This document shows, in pieces, positions 55,551 through 64,000 of a DNA stretch of 64,000 nt. Position 1 is the first letter of the stretch, and the number at the start of each line of letters is the position of its first letter. This DNA comes from Rahnella victoriana (lineage in GTDB: Bacteria > Pseudomonadota > Gammaproteobacteria > Enterobacterales > Enterobacteriaceae): assembly GCF_004330295.1 (NCBI RefSeq), contig NZ_SJOJ01000012.1:62001-126000 (forward strand), in the 5' to 3' direction. Below the pieces are notes generated by a model, which did no database searches, had not been told where the DNA came from, and was given only the letters and a program-made list of their open reading frames with translations. The translations under genes were made by a program, and so were the position numbers.

Positions 55551-55584
55551 GACAATCACAGGATTCCATAATCCTGTGATTGTC
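55551..55584 (+). terminator. Terminator after sad
   Basis: Perfect 15-bp stem GACAATCACAGGATT (55551-55565) with its complement (55570-55584), 4-base loop, followed by TTCTTATC. The remaining 290 bases before the sulfatase gene show no gene; TAAAAAC-type AT-rich stretches there may hold its promoter. Confidence 0.8.
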
Positions 55585-55876: not shown

Positions 55877-57466
55877 ATGGTTAACAAAGTATCTTTCAGG
55901 CGGACGATGGTTGCCAGCATGCTCGCCCTGATGTCTGGCACCGCAGCAGCGGCAGATCCCACGCCCGCTGCGGGTTCACCTGAAAATGCCCCCAAGCAGG
56001 ACACGTCAAAACCTAACATCGTGGTTATTTTTGGCGATGATATCGGTTACTGGAATTTAAGTACTTATAACCAGGGAATGATGGGATATAAAACGCCCAA
56101 CATTGACAGTATTGCCAGTGAAGGTGCGAAATTTACTTCCTATTATGCTGAGCAGAGTTCCACCGCGGGGCGATCTTCCTTTATTACCGGACAAATGCCG
56201 TTCCGTACCGGGATGAGTAAAGTCGGTATGCCGGGTGCACCGCAAGGCCTGCAAAAAGAAGACCCGACCATCGCCAATATTCTCAAACAACTGGGTTACG
56301 CCACCGGTCAGTTTGGTAAAAACCATCTCGGTGACCGCGATGAGTTTCTGCCCACTGCGCACGGGTTTGATGAGTTCCTCGGTAACCTTTACCACCTGAA
56401 TGCCGAAGAAGAACCTGAAAATCCGGATTACCCGAAAGATCCGGAATTCCGTAAACAGTTCGGCCCGCGTGGCGTCATTAAAAGCTCGGCGGATGGCAAA
56501 ATCGAAGATACCGGCCCGCTTACCGTCAAACGTATGGGGACGGTGGATGAAGAAACCCTTGCCGCCAACAACGACTTTATGGAACGCCAGACCCATGCCG
56601 GTAAGCCGTTCTTCACCTGGTTTAACACCACCCGCATGCACAACAAAACACACCTGAAAGACGGCAGTATTGGTGTGACGGGGCTGGGCACTTACGCAGA
56701 CGGCATGGTCGAGCATGACAAGATGGTCGGCGAGGTGTTGCAGAAGATTAAAGATCTCGGCATCGAAGATAACACTATCGTGCTGTACACCACCGATAAC
56801 GGTCCGATGACGGCCACCTGGCCGGATGCGGGGATTACGCCGTTCCGTGGGGAGAAAAACACCGGCTGGGAAGGCGGTTTCCGCGTTCCGGCGATGATCC
56901 GATGGCCGGGCCACATCAAACCAGGCACGCTGATCAATGATATTTTCGGCAGTAACGACTGGTTCCCGACGCTGGTGGCAGCAGCCGGTGTGCCGGATAT
57001 CAAAGAGCAACTCCTTAAAGGCTATAAAACGCCTTCCATCACCTACAAAGTTCATCTCGACGGCTATAACCAGCTCGATTTCCTGCAGGGCAAAGGCGAA
57101 GATCCGCGTAAGGAATTCTTCTACTGGAGCGATGACGGCGATCTGCTGGCTATCCGTTATGGCCGCTGGAAAGCCCACTTTATGATCCAGGAACACACCG
57201 GGCTGGATGTGTGGCGCTATCCGTTCACCATACTGCGCGCACCGATGATTTTCGATCTGGAAGTCGATCCGCTGGAGAAAGGCTCTGACGGTATGGGCTA
57301 CAACACCTGGTACTACGACCGCCTGTTCCTGCTGGGTGGCGCGCAGAAATATGTGAAAGAGATGCTGGATACCTTCAAAGAGTTCCCGCCACGTCAGAAA
57401 CCCGGTTCGTTCACGGTTTCCGATGCGTCGGCGATGCTTGAAGAAGGTGCAAACGCGAACAACTAA
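55877..57466 (+). CDS. Serine-type arylsulfatase, exported
   Basis: 529 residues from the ATG at 55877, which has a CGGAG ribosome site 8 bases upstream. An ATG at 55859 lacks one and would only add six residues before the signal peptide. The Sec signal ends about TAAAADPTP. The sulfatase active-site motif is S95-T-A-G-R99 in EQSSTAGRSSFITGQ. The residue converted to formylglycine is Ser, not Cys, so it needs the radical-SAM maturase encoded next. Metal-binding marks include VVIFGDDIGYWN (Asp pair), a later LYTTDNGPM and FGKNHLGD. It hydrolyses sulfate esters, scavenging sulfur or carbon. Seven genes follow in the same transcript. Confidence 0.9.
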   Translation: MVNKVSFRRTMVASMLALMSGTAAAADPTPAAGSPENAPKQDTSKPNIVVIFGDDIGYWNLSTYNQGMMGYKTPNIDSIASEGAKFTSYYAEQSSTAGRSSFITGQMPFRTGMSKVGMPGAPQGLQKEDPTIANILKQLGYATGQFGKNHLGDRDEFLPTAHGFDEFLGNLYHLNAEEEPENPDYPKDPEFRKQFGPRGVIKSSADGKIEDTGPLTVKRMGTVDEETLAANNDFMERQTHAGKPFFTWFNTTRMHNKTHLKDGSIGVTGLGTYADGMVEHDKMVGEVLQKIKDLGIEDNTIVLYTTDNGPMTATWPDAGITPFRGEKNTGWEGGFRVPAMIRWPGHIKPGTLINDIFGSNDWFPTLVAAAGVPDIKEQLLKGYKTPSITYKVHLDGYNQLDFLQGKGEDPRKEFFYWSDDGDLLAIRYGRWKAHFMIQEHTGLDVWRYPFTILRAPMIFDLEVDPLEKGSDGMGYNTWYYDRLFLLGGAQKYVKEMLDTFKEFPPRQKPGSFTVSDASAMLEEGANANN

Positions 57467-57517
57467 CTTGTCACCCACCGGGCAGACCCCTGCCCGGTAC
57501 TTCCCTCAGGAGGCGCG

Positions 57518-58813
57518 ATGAAGTACAGCACCACATTGCCTGTTAAAGCATTACCGTCAGCAGAAAAGTATGACGGTACAGGCCCGGAATATACGCGACG
57601 CTTCCACGTAATGGCCAAGCCCAGCGGCTCAACCTGTAATCTCGATTGCTCCTACTGTTTTTACCTGAGTAAAGAAGATCTGCTGCATCAGGACCGGCAC
57701 ACCGGCATGAGTGATGAGGTGCTGGAGAATTTTATCCGCCAGTACATTGACGGTCAGGACGGCGAACAGGTGGTGTTCTCCTGGCAGGGCGGCGAGCCGA
57801 CGTTAATGGGACTGCCGTTTTTTGAGAAGGTAGTGAAATTCCAGAAACAGTATCAGAAGCCCGGTCAGCGCATCGAAAACGATTTACAGACCAACGGCGT
57901 GCTGATTAACGACAAGTGGGCCGAGTTTCTGAAAGAACACCATTTTCTGGTGGGCATCTCCATCGATGGCCCGCGGGAACTTCATGACCGCTACCGCGTC
58001 ACGCGCAGCGGCAAACCGACTTTCGACAAAGTCATGCAAGGCGTCGCGGCGCTGAAAAAATACAAGGTGCCTTTTAATGCACTGGTGACGGTCAACCGGA
58101 CCAATGCCCGCTTTCCGCTGGAAGTGTATCGCTTTATGACGCGGGAACTGGGGGCAACCTATGTGCAGTTTAACCCGTGCGTCGAACCCGTTGATTTCAA
58201 AGTTACCGCGCCCCAGTTCTGGCGTGATGACACCATCCCGGTGACCGGCTCCCGCCGCGCCAGGCCAGGCGATCTGGATTCTGTCGTCACCGACTGGTCG
58301 GTCGATCCCAACGACTGGGGCACGTTCCTGATCGCGGTGTTTGAAGAATGGGTGAACAACGATTTAGGCCGCGTTCAGGTCAATCTGTTCGAAACCGCCG
58401 TCGCCCAGACCATGGGGATGCCCGCGCAGATTTGTACCGCCTCTGAATTTTGCGGCAAAGGGCTGGCGGTAGAGAAAAACGGCGATATTTATTCCTGCGA
58501 CCACTACGTCTACCCGGAATACCAGCTGGGAAATATTGCCGATACGCAACTGGCGCACATGGCGTTTTCCGAACGTCAGAAAGCCTTCGGCATGGGGAAA
58601 AAAGACACCCTGCCCGCCTACTGCAAATCCTGCCCGTACCTGAAACTCTGCTGGGGAGAATGCCCGAAAAACCGCATCGTCCGCGCCCCGGACGGCGAAA
58701 CGGGCCTTAACTATCTCTGTCCCGGCATCAAAGCTTTCTTTAACTACGCCGAGCCGATACTGGTGGGGATCGCCACGCTGGTGAAACGTGACTTTTCAGG
58801 ATTAAAGCGATGA
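57518..58813 (+). CDS. Anaerobic sulfatase-maturating enzyme (AtsB-like radical SAM/SPASM)
   Basis: 431 residues. Radical-SAM cluster C40-x3-C44-x2-C47 (GSTCNLDCSYCFYL), AdoMet motif WQGGEPTLMG, and a C-terminal SPASM domain with two auxiliary clusters (CTASEFCGKG ... YSCDHYVYPE, YCKSCPYLKLCWGECPKNR, and YLCPGIKAFF). It oxidises the active-site Ser (or Cys) of sulfatases to formylglycine in the cytosol before export. Its partner is the sulfatase encoded 51 bases upstream. An AGGAGG ribosome site precedes the ATG. Its stop overlaps the MoxR gene start by four bases. Confidence 0.93.
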   Translation: MKYSTTLPVKALPSAEKYDGTGPEYTRRFHVMAKPSGSTCNLDCSYCFYLSKEDLLHQDRHTGMSDEVLENFIRQYIDGQDGEQVVFSWQGGEPTLMGLPFFEKVVKFQKQYQKPGQRIENDLQTNGVLINDKWAEFLKEHHFLVGISIDGPRELHDRYRVTRSGKPTFDKVMQGVAALKKYKVPFNALVTVNRTNARFPLEVYRFMTRELGATYVQFNPCVEPVDFKVTAPQFWRDDTIPVTGSRRARPGDLDSVVTDWSVDPNDWGTFLIAVFEEWVNNDLGRVQVNLFETAVAQTMGMPAQICTASEFCGKGLAVEKNGDIYSCDHYVYPEYQLGNIADTQLAHMAFSERQKAFGMGKKDTLPAYCKSCPYLKLCWGECPKNRIVRAPDGETGLNYLCPGIKAFFNYAEPILVGIATLVKRDFSGLKR

Positions 58814-59808
58814 CAAACAGAGAAAAGCTGTTGCAGCTTGAACAGCGGATGAATGAACAGGTGATCGGCCAGCAATCGCTGGTGCGCATGTTACTGATCG
58901 CCCTGCTGTGTGATGGTCATGTGTTGCTGGAAGGGCTGCCCGGACTGGCAAAAACCCGCGCCGTGCGCGAACTTGCCCGCCATGTGGAAGGCGAATTCAG
59001 CCGCATTCAGTTCACGCCGGATCTCCTGCCCTCTGACATTACCGGCAGCGAAATCTACCAGCAGCACGCCACCCGCGAAGAGGAACAGTTTCGCTTCCGC
59101 CCCGGTCCGGTGTTCGGCAACATTATTCTCGCCGATGAAATCAACCGTGCTTCGGCGCGAGTGCAGTCCGCCTTGCTGGAAGCCATGGAAGAACGCCATG
59201 TGACCGTGGCCGGAAAAACCTGGCCGTTGCCCGGTGTGTTTATGGTGCTGGCGACGCAAAACCCGGTGGATCAGGAAGGCACCTGGCCGCTGCCGGAAGC
59301 ACAGCTTGACCGTTTTCTGATGAAAGTGCTGGTGGATTATCCGTCGCGGGAAAACGAACAAAAAGTGATGCAACTGGTGCGCGCCGAACAGCAGCAAAAA
59401 TACCAGCAGACAGAGGTAGGATCCCCTGCGGAACAGGCGGAAACCCTAATGCTGACGCAACAGGATATCGCCACCTGCTGGCAGGAAATCTCTGCCATTT
59501 ATGTCGCGCCGGTGGTGGAAAACTACATTGTGAATCTGGTCGAAATGACCCGCCATCCGCAGGGCGCCAGCGATACGCTGGCCAGCTACATTACCTTTGG
59601 CGCCAGTCCGCGCGGCACGCTGGCGTTCGATCGCTGCGGGCGTGCGCTGGCATGGCTGGAAGGCCGCGACGCGGTGTTGCCGGAAGATATCCGCCAGATT
59701 GCCCCTGCCGTATTGCGTCACCGCCTGATGCTCAGCTATCAGGCCAATGCCGATAACTGTTCGCCGGATGAGGTCATCCGCATGTTGCTCGACGCGGTGG
59801 TGGCCTGA
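58810..59808 (+). CDS. MoxR-family AAA+ ATPase
   Basis: 332 residues. Walker A is GLPGLAKT (K48), Walker B is IILADEINRA (D109/E110), with sensor-like LATQNPVDQEGTWPLPEAQLDRF. The AAA_lid_2 domain covers about 245-325 (SYITFGASPRGTLAFDRCGRA). MoxR ATPases act with VWA proteins as chaperones that mature or insert metals into partner enzymes, e.g. methanol dehydrogenase (MoxR) or gas vesicle/CO dehydrogenase relatives. It starts inside the maturase stop codon, so its expression is tied to the sulfatase genes. Confidence 0.92.
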   Translation: MTNREKLLQLEQRMNEQVIGQQSLVRMLLIALLCDGHVLLEGLPGLAKTRAVRELARHVEGEFSRIQFTPDLLPSDITGSEIYQQHATREEEQFRFRPGPVFGNIILADEINRASARVQSALLEAMEERHVTVAGKTWPLPGVFMVLATQNPVDQEGTWPLPEAQLDRFLMKVLVDYPSRENEQKVMQLVRAEQQQKYQQTEVGSPAEQAETLMLTQQDIATCWQEISAIYVAPVVENYIVNLVEMTRHPQGASDTLASYITFGASPRGTLAFDRCGRALAWLEGRDAVLPEDIRQIAPAVLRHRLMLSYQANADNCSPDEVIRMLLDAVVA

Positions 59809-60713
59809 TGGAAAACCCGCTGGCGATTGACCGTGACACGCTGATGGCACTGGCCGGAGAGGCGAAACTGTTGTCGAATCCGCCGGGGCAAATCCCGCCC
59901 GGTGCGCTGGCCGGTGAACGGGTGTCGCGCCAGCAAGGGCGCGGATTAAATTTTGACAGTCTGCGGCGTTATCAGGCCGGTGATGATGTCCGGCTGATCG
60001 ACTGGCAGGCCACCGCACGCCTGCGGACGCCGTGGATACGCCTGTATAACGAAGAGCGCGAGCGCCCGGTTTTTCTGATTGTCGATCAGCGGCTCGACAT
60101 GTTCTTTGCCACGCGCGGGCAGACAAAATCGGTGGTGGCGGCAAAAATTGCCGGATTACTGGCCTGGCGCAGCTGGCACGACGGTGATCGGCTGGGGAGC
60201 GCCGTGTTCGGCGATGCCGGGTATGCCCTGCAAAAATGCCGGGCGCCCTCTGCAAATCTCAATCATGTGCTGGATGATTTACTCGACTATAACCAGGCGC
60301 TGCCGCCGCGTTATCCGGCAGAACCGGCCACGTCGTTGTCACTTTCCGCCGTCTTGCAACATGCCCGCCGGCTGATCCCGGCCGGTTCATGGGTGGCGCT
60401 GCTCAGTGATTTTCATGATCTGGATGCGGAATGCGAAGCCCTGCTGGCGGCCCTGCGCCGCCGCTGTGAAGTCAGCGCGTTTGTTATTCTCGACGATCTG
60501 CACCTTCGTCTGCCTGCCTCGGGCAATCTGGCGGCCAATTATCGCGGGCATGAAGCCGCGTTCTCCCTGTCAGGCGTGCTGCGCGATGAGATACAAAACA
60601 GCATCACCGCCCGCCTCAGCGCGCAGGAGAAAAAACTGACCCGGCTGGGGATCCGCGTCAATCAGATCGTGGTGACACAGGATTTACTCCGGCAACTGCA
60701 AAGGGGGCTCTGA
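59808..60713 (+). CDS. DUF58 protein (MoxR-system component)
   Basis: 301 residues with the DUF58 core LNFDSLRRYQAGDDVRLIDWQATARLRTPWIR and a following VWA-like Rossmann stretch (PVFLIVDQRLDMFFATRG). The MIDAS is degenerate (DQRLD in place of DxSxS). DUF58 proteins always travel with MoxR ATPases and probably link the ATPase to membrane VWA partners. Start and MoxR stop share one base (TGATG), and its stop abuts the next ATG. Confidence 0.9.
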   Translation: MENPLAIDRDTLMALAGEAKLLSNPPGQIPPGALAGERVSRQQGRGLNFDSLRRYQAGDDVRLIDWQATARLRTPWIRLYNEERERPVFLIVDQRLDMFFATRGQTKSVVAAKIAGLLAWRSWHDGDRLGSAVFGDAGYALQKCRAPSANLNHVLDDLLDYNQALPPRYPAEPATSLSLSAVLQHARRLIPAGSWVALLSDFHDLDAECEALLAALRRRCEVSAFVILDDLHLRLPASGNLAANYRGHEAAFSLSGVLRDEIQNSITARLSAQEKKLTRLGIRVNQIVVTQDLLRQLQRGL

Positions 60714-61154
60714 ATGCTGGAAAAAGGATTTAGCGTTCCGGATTTGTTTCAGCCCGCCCTGCCCGGCCGGTTCTCATGGTTTCCCCTTCCTCCCGGCTGG
60801 TTTGTTCTGGCGGGCGTGCTTATCGCGCTGCTGCTGATTTTTCTGCTGTATCGTCTGGCCCGCTGGCGGCGAAATCTCTGGCGACGTCAGGCGCTGGCCG
60901 CGTTGCGTGACGCGCACGATGCCGACGGCTGGCTCTCACTGATCAAACGTATTCTGTTAATGCATCAGCCCCGTGCGTCGGTCAGCCAGTGGCTGACACC
61001 GGAACACGTCCTGCAACAGGTCGATATTGATGCGGACCTGCGTCAGCAGCTCAGCGCGCGCTACTGCCAGCCGGAAAACACACTGGACAGTGAGCAAAAT
61101 GCCCGTCTGCAATCCCAACTGAAAACCTGGCTGGAGAAACTGCCGCATGTCTGA
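60714..61154 (+). CDS. DUF4381 single-span membrane protein
   Basis: 146 residues. One membrane helix at about 26-46 (GWFVLAGVLIALLLIFLLYR), preceded by a short periplasmic N-terminus with FSWFPLPPGWF. A cytoplasmic helical domain follows (WRRQALAALRDAHDADGW, ISV-type SQWLTPEHVLQQVDI). This is the DUF4381 pattern of MoxR/VWA operons. It is likely a membrane adaptor. It overlaps the next gene by eight bases. Confidence 0.85.
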   Translation: MLEKGFSVPDLFQPALPGRFSWFPLPPGWFVLAGVLIALLLIFLLYRLARWRRNLWRRQALAALRDAHDADGWLSLIKRILLMHQPRASVSQWLTPEHVLQQVDIDADLRQQLSARYCQPENTLDSEQNARLQSQLKTWLEKLPHV

Positions 61155-62124
61155 GTTTCTGAGCCGCCTCGATTTCGCCTGGCCGTGGGCCGGTTTACTG
61201 ATTTTCCTGCCGCTGATCAGCCGCTACTTCCTGCCTCGGGACAATGAGGTGAAAGAACGGGTGCGCGTGCCTTTCCTGCCCGAACTGATCGACGAAGTGA
61301 AACTCAACAGCCAGCCGGTGCGCAGCAGTAAACTGAGCAACATTCTGTTCTGGGTTATCTGGATGTTGCTGGTGGTGGCGCTTTCCCGACCGGAATACCT
61401 GACGCCGCCGCAGCATATTCAGAAGCCGATGCGCGACGTGGTGCTGATCCTCGATGTTTCCGGGTCGATGGCAAAAAACGATGTGGCGGGCGGCGAGACC
61501 CGTTTGCAGGCCGTGCAGGCGTCGGTGAGAAAGTTTGTCGAACAGCGTAAATCTGACCGCATCGGGCTGGTGATTTTTGCCAGCCACGCCTGGCCTTTCG
61601 CGCCCGTCAGTGAAGATAAACAGGCGTTGCAGACGCGGATCAATCAGCTGTCGCCCGGCATGATCGGACAACAGACGGCGATCGGCGACGCGCTGGGCGT
61701 CGGGGTGAAACTGCTGGATACCACCGCCAACAAAGACGCCAGCAAACTGGCGATTTTACTGACCGACGGCAATGACACCGCCTCGCAACTCGCCCCGCCG
61801 CTCGCGGCGCAACTGGCGGTGTCTCATCACGTTCAGGTGCATACCATTGCCTTTGGCGATGTCACCAGCACCGGCGATGACAAAGTCGATCTGCCGTTGT
61901 TGCAGGATATCGCCCGGATCACCGGCGGCAAATCCTGGACCGCCAGCAACTCCGGCGCGTCACTTGACAGCGTCTGGCAGGAAATCGATGCCATCACGCC
62001 GGTTCAGGTGAAATCCATCGGCTGGTCATGGCATATCCCGCTGTTCCAGTGGCCGTTACTGCTGGCGCTGGCGCTCCTGTTGCTGCTCAGTCTTGGGCGT
62101 TATTTCCGGGAGAAAACCGCATGA
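61147..62124 (+). CDS. VWA-domain membrane protein, BatA-like, intact MIDAS
   Basis: 325 residues. Two N-terminal helices (12-30 and 65-80), a periplasmic or cytosolic VWA domain (96-290) and a terminal helix (305-320). The metal-ion-dependent adhesion site is intact: D103-V-S105-G-S107 in LILDVSGSMAKN, with later GQQTAIGDAL and LLTDGND. VWA proteins of MoxR systems recognise partner proteins through this metal site. It overlaps the next gene by four bases (ATGA). Confidence 0.9.
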   Translation: MSEFLSRLDFAWPWAGLLIFLPLISRYFLPRDNEVKERVRVPFLPELIDEVKLNSQPVRSSKLSNILFWVIWMLLVVALSRPEYLTPPQHIQKPMRDVVLILDVSGSMAKNDVAGGETRLQAVQASVRKFVEQRKSDRIGLVIFASHAWPFAPVSEDKQALQTRINQLSPGMIGQQTAIGDALGVGVKLLDTTANKDASKLAILLTDGNDTASQLAPPLAAQLAVSHHVQVHTIAFGDVTSTGDDKVDLPLLQDIARITGGKSWTASNSGASLDSVWQEIDAITPVQVKSIGWSWHIPLFQWPLLLALALLLLLSLGRYFREKTA

Positions 62125-63647
62125 GCGATTTCCATTTCATCTACCCGTGGCGGTTATCCGGTCTGATACTGTGCATCCTGCTGGGGTTTATCACCACGCG
62201 CCAGCGCAGCGCCTGGCACCGGATTATGGATAAACCTTTCGCGAAGGCGCTGATTATCGGGCAGCAAAAACGCCTGACCCGCGCCCTGCCGTGGGTGATG
62301 GCGCTGGGCGTGATTGCCCTTTCCGGCCCCACCTGGCAGCGGGAATTACCGGCCGCGCTGACACCACAAAGTGACATGATGGTCATTCTGCAACAGGACC
62401 CGGCGATGATGGCGCAGGATCTGGCCCCGAGCCGTCATCAGCGTATGCAAAGCAAAATCATGGATCTGATGACCCGCACGCCGGGCACCCGTTTCGGGCT
62501 GGTGGTGTATCACGCGCAGGCGTGGCTGACCACGCCGCTGACGCAGGATCCGGCGTTTTATTCGTTGTTTCTTCATGCACAGACGCCGTCACTTTTGCCG
62601 GAAGGCGAAGGGTCCGGTCTGCGGCAGGCTGTCGCGCTGGCGCAAAAAAACATGCCCGCGGCACAGGATGCGCCGCGTAATTTGCTGCTGATCGCCGATT
62701 CCCTGACGGCTGAAGATGCCCGCTGGCTGACAGAGTCCGGGCTGCCGATCCAGATCTGGGTGCCGGGTACGGCGCGCGGCGGTGCGCTGCCGCAGGCGTA
62801 TGACGGGCGCGGTATCGATACCCGTCTCAATGTTCAGCGGTTCAGCGAGACCAGCGACGGCGGCGTGCCGGTGACGCTGGTCACCAGCGACGACAGCGAT
62901 ATTTCGGTGATCGCCAGCCATATCCGGCAATCCGTTGCCGCCCAAAACAACGCCCGCGCCGACCTGCACTGGAAAAACAGCGGCTATCTGCTGGTGATAC
63001 CGGTGCTGCTGTTGCTGCTGTTCTGCCGACGTCAGCTGATTTGCTGGCTGGTGGTGGCGCTGCCGTTGATGCTGTATCTGCCGCAGGGACAGGCGGCGTG
63101 GCGCGATGCGTGGATCAGCCCTGATATGCAGGGGCAACGGGCCTTTGATAAAGGGCAGTATTCACAGGCGGCAGAACGTTTTCAGGATCCGCTGTGGCAG
63201 GGGATTGCCTGGTATCGCGCCGGTAATTTTGTCGCCGCCACCTCTGCGTTTCGTCAGGCTCCGCAGACCGCCGATGTGCTGCTGTGGACCGGCAACAGCT
63301 ACGCGCAGCAAAAGCTGTGGCAACCGGCCATCAACAGTTACGATCAGGCGCTGAGCCTGCGCCCCGGCTGGAAAATGGCGCAGGATAACCGGGCAAAAAT
63401 TGCCAAAATCATCATGACGCTTCGCCAGCAGGAGCGCGACCGGCAGTCTGCACAGGGCAAGGAAAAGGACTACAAACCCGACGACATCAAATACGATCTG
63501 AAGAAAAATCAGGGCGTGAACCAGAAGGATATTCAGCCGGTCGCCAGCGCGAATCCGCAGGTCAGCCAGTGGTATGACAATCTGGACGTATCCCCTTCCG
63601 GCCTGCTGGAAAATCTCTACCGTTCAAATCAGGAGGTCGCCCCATGA
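62121..63647 (+). CDS. VWA/TPR membrane protein, BatB/BatC-like, degenerate MIDAS
   Basis: 508 residues from the ATG at 62121. A longer frame from 62028 overlaps the BatA gene and is unlikely. The VWA domain occupies about 85-285, but the MIDAS positions read Q91-Q-D-P-A95 instead of DxSxS, so metal binding is probably lost. Two helices lie at about 291-325. TPR repeats follow (GQRAFDKGQYSQAAERFQDP, AGNFVAATSAFRQAPQ, LWQPAINSYDQALSLRPGWK), then a basic low-complexity tail. It combines BatB and BatC roles in one protein. It overlaps the next gene by four bases. Confidence 0.88.
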   Translation: MSDFHFIYPWRLSGLILCILLGFITTRQRSAWHRIMDKPFAKALIIGQQKRLTRALPWVMALGVIALSGPTWQRELPAALTPQSDMMVILQQDPAMMAQDLAPSRHQRMQSKIMDLMTRTPGTRFGLVVYHAQAWLTTPLTQDPAFYSLFLHAQTPSLLPEGEGSGLRQAVALAQKNMPAAQDAPRNLLLIADSLTAEDARWLTESGLPIQIWVPGTARGGALPQAYDGRGIDTRLNVQRFSETSDGGVPVTLVTSDDSDISVIASHIRQSVAAQNNARADLHWKNSGYLLVIPVLLLLLFCRRQLICWLVVALPLMLYLPQGQAAWRDAWISPDMQGQRAFDKGQYSQAAERFQDPLWQGIAWYRAGNFVAATSAFRQAPQTADVLLWTGNSYAQQKLWQPAINSYDQALSLRPGWKMAQDNRAKIAKIIMTLRQQERDRQSAQGKEKDYKPDDIKYDLKKNQGVNQKDIQPVASANPQVSQWYDNLDVSPSGLLENLYRSNQEVAP

Positions 63648-64000
63648 GAGGCCTGTTGCTGATATTGCTGCTGGCCGTGTTACCGGCACGCGCCGCCATG
63701 GACATTACCCGCGAACTGGTCGCGCCCGATAACGTGGTGCCCGGACAACCGCTGCGCGTGGCCGTGACCTTCTGGACTGACACCTGGTTTAATCCGCCAC
63801 CGCAATGGCCGGCCTTTGTGATTGAAAACGGATCACTGCTAACCACGCCGTTACCGAATCAGTTACTGAGCCGCCATAAAGACGGCACCAGCTGGAGCGG
63901 GATCCGCCTCGAACGGCAGGTGATGGCCTGGGATCAGGGCGTGCTGCGGCTTCCTGAGACCGAAGTGACGCTGACCTCCCCCGGTCAGCCGCCGGTCACC
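63644..64000 (+). CDS. BatD-like protein, 3' end missing
   Basis: The first 119 codons are in the window. A signal peptide (RGLLLILLLAVLPARAA) is followed by MDITRELVAPDNVVPGQPLRVAVTFW, a typical BatD beta-sandwich beginning. BatD completes MoxR/VWA operons and acts at the periplasmic face. The ATG overlaps the upstream stop by four bases, so it belongs to the sulfatase/MoxR operon, which continues past the window. Confidence 0.85.
   Translation, partial: MRGLLLILLLAVLPARAAMDITRELVAPDNVVPGQPLRVAVTFWTDTWFNPPPQWPAFVIENGSLLTTPLPNQLLSRHKDGTSWSGIRLERQVMAWDQGVLRLPETEVTLTSPGQPPVT

Follow-up and report, generated by a model that had tools for sequence, protein, structure and literature searches.

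Bat (Bacteroides aerotolerance) operons encode a MoxR ATPase of the MRP-type subfamily. Other MoxR systems, NorQ/NorD, CbbQ/CbbO and RavA/ViaA, are described with one VWA partner each. YdeN/YdeM of E. coli and AtsA/AtsB of Klebsiella are pairs of a sulfatase and an anaerobic sulfatase maturase (anSME). A 2012 paper notes that in no species had the function of Bat been worked out (PMC3557215), and work on NorQD provides a precedent, a model that has the VWA partner remodelled by the ATPase (PMC13036017). In the window, the 64,000-nucleotide stretch of Rahnella victoriana DNA analysed here (contig NZ_SJOJ01000012.1), a Ser-type sulfatase and its maturase are followed by a set of MoxR-Bat genes, the last of which ends beyond the window. 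Comparison of sequences gives good support to the view that these MoxR-Bat genes are a dedicated module tied to a sulfatase subfamily; this support comes from linkage of the genes in samples of a family, an order and a phylum, and from one MoxR clade that is distinct from housekeeping Bat MoxRs. That the sulfatase itself would be the client of the MoxR-Bat machine is held more tentatively, at slightly less than an even chance.

The eight genes, identified by family matches, all lie on the + strand (55877-64000). The predicted secreted S1 sulfatase of 529 amino acids (55877-57466; PF00884 3.5e-49, PF14707 1.5e-8) starts at 55877, preceded by GGAGTGACC, and is separated from the radical-SAM/SPASM maturase of 431 amino acids (57518-58813) by a 51-bp gap containing AGGAGG, without overlap. 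All six junctions downstream of the maturase overlap or abut: the maturase and MoxR (58810-59808) overlap by 4 bases, MoxR and DUF58 (59808-60713) by 1, DUF58 and DUF4381 (60714-61154) abut, DUF4381 and BatA (61147-62124) overlap by 8, BatA and BatB (62121-63647) by 4 and BatB and BatD by 4. Of BatD the N-terminal third lies in the window (63644-64000); the contig sequence (L032:8645-9682) shows that the gene runs to ~64681. The first-pass annotation had described sulfatase, maturase and a full MoxR/VWA/Bat system in one overlapping operon. Its four-base overlap of maturase stop and MoxR start and its overlapping or abutting junctions thereafter are confirmed, and the genes stand; the description is refined in two points, the gap behind the sulfatase and the completeness of the system, since BatD ends outside the window. 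The MoxR has AAA_3 and AAA_lid_2 domains (PF07726, PF17863) with Walker A GLPGLAKT and Walker B IILADE, as in MoxR AAA+ ATPases, and the order MoxR-DUF58-DUF4381-VWA-VWA/TPR-BatD is that of Bat operons.

Linkage was studied with a sulfatase profile (A1) of seven rows and a MoxR profile (A2) of five rows. Both were built mostly from linked loci and bit-score tiers therefore lean to such loci; the trees discussed below are independent of the scores. Genomes were drawn evenly from order, phylum and family, and a further draw covered the class; candidates were scored only in part in some genomes. True sample rates are those of the order, phylum and family draws, of which the order and phylum samples have nine sulfatase-bearing genomes in common; the locus sets were partly picked for linkage. 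Co-occurrence was all-or-none in the family draw, from what we take to be Enterobacteriaceae in the wide sense: among 304 genomes the sulfatase was found in 14 and a Bat-type MoxR in 14, the identical 14 genomes of 11 genera, and in 14/14 both genes lay on one strand about 1.35-1.45 kb apart, which leaves space for the maturase. An artefact of one strain is rejected by this draw. The order draw yielded 46 sulfatase-bearing genomes out of 295, with a MoxR within 10 kb in 40 of the 46 and in 10 of 11 families; in the phylum draw these numbers were 28 of 299 genomes, 17 of 28 and 9 of 14 families, and outside the order 9 of the 19 sulfatase-bearing genomes of the phylum draw were linked. Counted by copy, 54/81 sulfatases in the order sample and 22/45 in the phylum sample were linked, while ~1.1 of the 110 copies of both samples together would be expected by chance, assuming 4.7 Mb genomes; chance neighbours were thus rejected. 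Linkage drops with distance in the sulfatase family, as copies at 500-700 bits were linked in 3/28 (order) and 0/10 (phylum) cases. The refuting condition set with the first-pass annotation, a link confined to one strain, fails; the class draw, discussed below, gave a low figure.

Named genomes were represented by the best 79 loci by sulfatase profile. At least four Bat-cluster genes were present in 21 of these, and in 19/49 when both flanks were available. Linked genomes include Vibrio, Photobacterium, Shewanella, Raoultella, Pantoea and Buttiauxella, and also Echinicola, Galbibacter, Gemmata, Paracoccus, Bauldia and Desulfoluna; E. coli genomes searched for the operon gave no near match. A set of 40 of these named genomes comprised 20 with a linked seed locus, one with its locus (L048) at a contig edge and 19 with an unlinked seed. 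Here 39 of the 77 sulfatases of at least 700 bits had a high-scoring MoxR within 15 kb and 1 a low-scoring MoxR. At 500-700 bits 1/18 was near a high-scoring MoxR, and among the 48 weaker sulfatases listed 4 had a high-scoring MoxR close by and 1 a low-scoring one. Viewed from the ATPase, a sulfatase of the subfamily was found within 15 kb of 27/45 high-scoring MoxRs vs 1/72 low-scoring ones. Where the seed was unlinked, 8 of the 19 genomes had a high-scoring MoxR, which in 6 was linked at another place in the genome. Sulfatase and MoxR were on the same strand in 52/61 linked loci.

In a tree built from 121 MoxRs, 78 form a clade that contains 60 of the 61 sulfatase-linked rows, and 1 of the 43 rows outside it is linked, namely the distant, long-branched MoxR of L061; since the loci were partly picked as linked or unlinked, 60/78 is not a rate. 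A tree of 99 MoxRs, made after removal of 10 long-branch rows and 12 near-copies, gave the same split (68 vs 31, support 99/98), its sides being named after the 121-row tree had been seen. The window MoxR is on the side of the 68 and is not a member of the clade of housekeeping Bat MoxRs, those without a sulfatase nearby; housekeeping MoxRs from the same Vibrio genomes fall on the other side of the split. The clade spans four phyla, with Echinicola, Galbibacter and Algibacter (Bacteroidota), Gemmata (Planctomycetota), Desulfoluna (Desulfobacterota), Alphaproteobacteria and Gammaproteobacteria, and the grouping of members from Bacteroidota to Gammaproteobacteria speaks for transfer as a module. 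When linkage is mapped on a sulfatase tree made with FastTree, with rows short of flank left out before counting, 16 changes are needed, and starred branches force at least 14 of them; the same MoxR clade thus partners sulfatases of several lineages. MoxR distances correlate with those of the nearest sulfatase at r = 0.51 (0/2000 permutations as high) and with those of BatA at r = 0.93. This suggests that the Bat genes are tightly kept together and that the sulfatase is swapped more freely.

The window sulfatase matches PF00884 at 168 bits and its S-T-A-G-R agrees with the motif C/S-x-P/A-x-R. By sequence it belongs to the S1 (formylglycine) sulfatases and is predicted to hydrolyse sulfate esters; its hydrophobic N-terminus suggests secretion. 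The columns of GDDIG, TDNG and GKNH, presumably metal ligands, are invariant in the sulfatase alignment. Aligned relatives beyond the closest ones have C-T-A-G-R and are 52-61% identical to the window protein, and nearly all sulfatase copies in the best 79 named loci are C-T-A-G-R, with six Ser-type copies. The closest solved relative by profile is the arylsulfatase PDB 7aj0 (E = 9.6e-76); as its 258.5 bits are far under the 600-1000 bits of members, no solved chain in that search resembles a member of the subfamily. The maturase scores 512.9 bits against TIGR03942 (cut-off 349.45) and has a SPASM domain (PF13186) and the radical-SAM CxxxCxxC as CNLDCSYC, the features of an anSME. An anSME lies within 6 kb of 13/13 distinct Ser-type sulfatase copies vs 4/108 Cys-type copies (short flanks included), and of 3 of 19 further copies in which the motif was not readable. 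Three further loci of the same family that hold a Ser-type sulfatase and an anSME (L041-L043), with sulfatases just 31-36% identical to that of the window, are without MoxR-Bat genes in the 17-18 kb read. Ser-type maturation as such therefore seems independent of the module, and a general requirement of MoxR for it was rejected on the strength of these loci and of the predominance of Cys-type among the sulfatase copies read. Tat export as the explanation of a cytosolic ATPase was also rejected, as twin-arginine-like signals occur in only 13/61 linked sulfatases.

The DUF58 protein (PF01882 7.3e-30) shows no transmembrane-like stretch in its hydropathy, and the DUF4381 protein (PF14316 1.1e-11) would have a single transmembrane segment (residues 30-48) with a basic C-terminal side. 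From hydropathy and basic flanks, BatA and BatB are probably also membrane-bound with their VWA domains outside, and BatD appears to have a signal peptide and a C-terminal anchor. BatA (PF00092/PF13519), with its transmembrane-like stretches, has an intact metal ion-dependent adhesion site (MIDAS; DxSxS), as in 59 of the 60 linked loci including the window. BatB was matched to PF13519 and PF07719 (VWA and TPR) on the longer frame 62028-63647; the MIDAS pattern was not found in BatB of 23/60 linked loci, the window among them, and of 12/44 others. The pattern retained by BatA is absent from the window BatB and from the enterobacterial relatives of that protein, which suggests that the two VWA proteins have divided tasks. 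The window BatD had no Pfam match of its own, PF13584 included; relatives in L040 and L113 do match PF13584, and a profile built from the window and L040 proteins, which the window protein itself matches, found a BatD-like gene in most loci having the cluster. The BatD counterpart in R. victoriana is annotated as 'oxygen tolerance domain protein'.

According to the mechanism proposed, the operon would combine a periplasmic Ser-type sulfatase with two systems that make it functional. Prior to export, the cytosolic anSME would convert the active-site serine to formylglycine, a step established for the anSME family and assumed here. MoxR, DUF58, DUF4381, BatA, BatB and BatD would form a dedicated membrane-spanning AAA+ remodelling machine, with a MoxR hexamer and DUF58 in the cytosol and with the VWA domains of BatA and BatB and the body of BatD probably facing the periplasm. 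Once exported, the sulfatase would be held by these periplasmic domains, as would its partner periplasmic enzymes in other species, and ATP hydrolysis by MoxR, relayed via the membrane proteins, would power folding, assembly or release at a late stage. What we infer in this scheme is the topology, the contact of the machine with the sulfatase and the step of remodelling. In a wider form, which we consider possible though doubtful, the widely transferred, distinct clade of Bat-type MoxRs would be a dedicated ATP-driven finisher of secreted enzymes, working across the inner membrane on the C/S-T-A-G-R sulfatase and on co-encoded HAD, cytochrome/TPR or DUF1254/DUF1214 partners. To our knowledge no client set has been defined before for a Bat system. 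The job of the Bat operon was described as unresolved (PMC3557215), and the sulfatase-tied clade offers a testable candidate job. Three features of the clade make the question directly testable: its tie to a single secreted enzyme that can be assayed, its presence or absence as a unit among members of a genus, and the fact that it supplies the only Bat-type MoxR of the window genome at E <= 1e-90. If the sulfatase is indeed the client, MoxR-VWA maturation would extend to secreted enzymes and a missing requirement for expressing these sulfatases would have been found.

The sulfatase is the commonest neighbour within 10 kb of the 78 clade MoxRs (60/78, in loci partly picked for sulfatase); a multihaem/TPR cytochrome occurs near 27, a HAD hydrolase near 25, an anSME near 19 and a DUF1254/DUF1214 protein near 8. 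Eighteen clade members lack a sulfatase in this range. Five of them (L184, L186, L245, L247, L250) adjoin DUF1254/DUF1214 proteins and four a cytochrome (L241, L242, L219 with a sulfatase 10.9 kb off, and L181 at a contig edge); nine have none of the partners sought, among them L206 with a sulfatase 12 kb off. L243, L244, L246 and L248, from genomes of family f2, form a close group of clade MoxR-Bat operons with no sought partner within 10 kb. A multihaem cytochrome c fused to TPR repeats (L037:5836-8154, L038:10033-12213) recurs both by the sulfatase and by the MoxR-Bat clade, also when the sulfatase is elsewhere (L241, L242). The HAD-type hydrolase, with a D-x-D-G-T motif, accompanies sulfatase loci (L044:18801-19796, G000:C57:50390-51334). 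It was found in 14/15 genomes with the operon vs 1/13 without, these genomes being chosen and not drawn; in the exception, G014, it adjoins a different sulfatase-anSME pair without MoxR, and the HAD thus appears to go with sulfatases whether or not MoxR is there. The two genomes of the genus Rahnella in this set (G000, G008) have a HAD match that is only 49% identical, in the window genome the sole match at E <= 1e-30 and on another contig. For the DUF1254/DUF1214 families beside clade MoxR-Bat operons, no paper naming both was found. Clustering of further neighbours in 93 loci, with a gene caller that misses genes in GC-rich loci, gave only small groups: response regulators (11), LysR-type regulators (9), an unidentified group (7), DUF1254/DUF1214 (7) and unrecognised DUF4381 (6).

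The region is 99.1% identical to part of a 723-kb Rahnella victoriana megaplasmid, where the same gene set and order are annotated; type VI secretion genes also lie near the matching region. Pantoea matches to the region (H3-H8) are on plasmids of 549-927 kb. Location on a megaplasmid may account for patchy presence within genera. A terminator-like stem (55551-55584, + strand; L032:552-585), a consensus match only, stands between an upstream aldehyde dehydrogenase gene and the sulfatase, and promoter-like sites were not commoner than in shuffled sequence. An autotransporter of 1237 amino acids with Ig-like repeats begins 99 bases past BatD on the + strand (L032:9782-13495; window 64781 onwards). 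It may be co-transcribed with the operon, as it is on the same strand and no + strand terminator-like site was found between BatD and this gene.

Several observations weigh against the sulfatase as the client of a dedicated machine. The BatA MIDAS is also intact in 47/48 unlinked loci and is thus no special mark. In the class-wide draw of 274 genomes, 19 had a sulfatase match at E <= 1e-60, 11 of them of at least 700 bits, and linkage was seen in 1/11, the window's own genome, a figure counted by eye among genomes many of which are drafts. No Bat genes were found in 18-kb stretches from three genomes of this draw (L237, L238, L239), and together these results indicate that the sulfatase is often present without the module. 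In the 40-genome set, 11/40 sulfatase genomes were without a high-scoring MoxR. The co-occurrence in the family in part reflects transfer as one operon. The first-pass annotation had the MoxR system dedicated to the sulfatase; the tie to the sulfatase subfamily holds through linkage and clade, but it is not exclusive, in view of the 18/78 clade members without a sulfatase within 10 kb, nine beside cytochrome/TPR or DUF1254/DUF1214 proteins and nine without any partner sought. Recurrence beside the clade means that a HAD, cytochrome or DUF1254/DUF1214 protein could be the client. A module serving a wider periplasmic pathway that includes the sulfatase, with one or several of these proteins as direct client, is accordingly conceivable, if rather unlikely. 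The neighbour counts given above, the partners of the sulfatase-less clade members and the distribution of the HAD over genomes with and without the operon speak for it; the sulfatase, however, is by far the commonest neighbour and the sole such partner within the window operon, the HAD match of the window genome is on a different contig, and a HAD also accompanies the MoxR-less pair of G014.

It is improbable that the genes form a general envelope or oxidative-stress Bat module that does not act on the sulfatase and happens to be regulated together with it or to lie with it on a mobile region. The match of the operon to a megaplasmid would suit such a module, and the literature discusses Bat operons in connection with aerotolerance and stress (PMC3557215). 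However, the housekeeping Bat MoxRs of the same genomes form a separate clade, with 1 of 43 outside rows near such a sulfatase, and the link recurs in many families, several phyla and different sulfatase lineages. Least probable is loading of active-site calcium into the sulfatase, and the metal loading put forward in the first-pass annotation found no support. Unlinked sulfatases keep the metal motifs (GDD 37/37, DNG 36/37, GKxH 37/37), and with the active-site lysine and histidine these are kept equally in unlinked (36 or 37/37) and linked (73/73) proteins; the sulfatase genomes without a high-scoring MoxR and the three Ser-type sulfatase-anSME loci without the module nearby count against it too. 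Calcium is, moreover, abundant outside the cytosol. In its favour are the invariance of the presumed metal ligands and the reported insertion of iron into nitric oxide reductase by NorQD (PMC13036017).

The open-access literature, which leaves most subscription journals outside, yielded no paper describing a sulfatase-MoxR link; in papers with MoxR plus sulfatase or arylsulfatase, the words occur in separate places or carry another meaning. The window resembles Bat operons in gene kinds and order (MoxR, DUF58, DUF4381, BatA, BatB/TPR, BatD), while its MoxR falls in a separate clade tied to a sulfatase subfamily. As with NorQ/NorD, CbbQ/CbbO and RavA/ViaA (PMC13036017, PMC9976466, PMC3893208), a MoxR ATPase with a VWA partner is proposed to act on a specific enzyme. 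Unlike these systems as described, the window encodes a pair of membrane proteins with VWA domains, along with BatD, DUF58 and DUF4381, and a secreted protein is its proposed client. A Ser-type sulfatase with its own radical-SAM maturase is shared with pairs like YdeN/YdeM and AtsA/AtsB, L041-L043 also being Ser-type, whereas the pairs read (L041-L043) are without MoxR-Bat genes nearby. PDB 7aj0 is the nearest solved relative of the window sulfatase, yet outside the score range of the subfamily. Bat operons and MoxR-VWA chaperones are known; what we regard as new is the sulfatase-associated clade of Bat-type MoxR systems.

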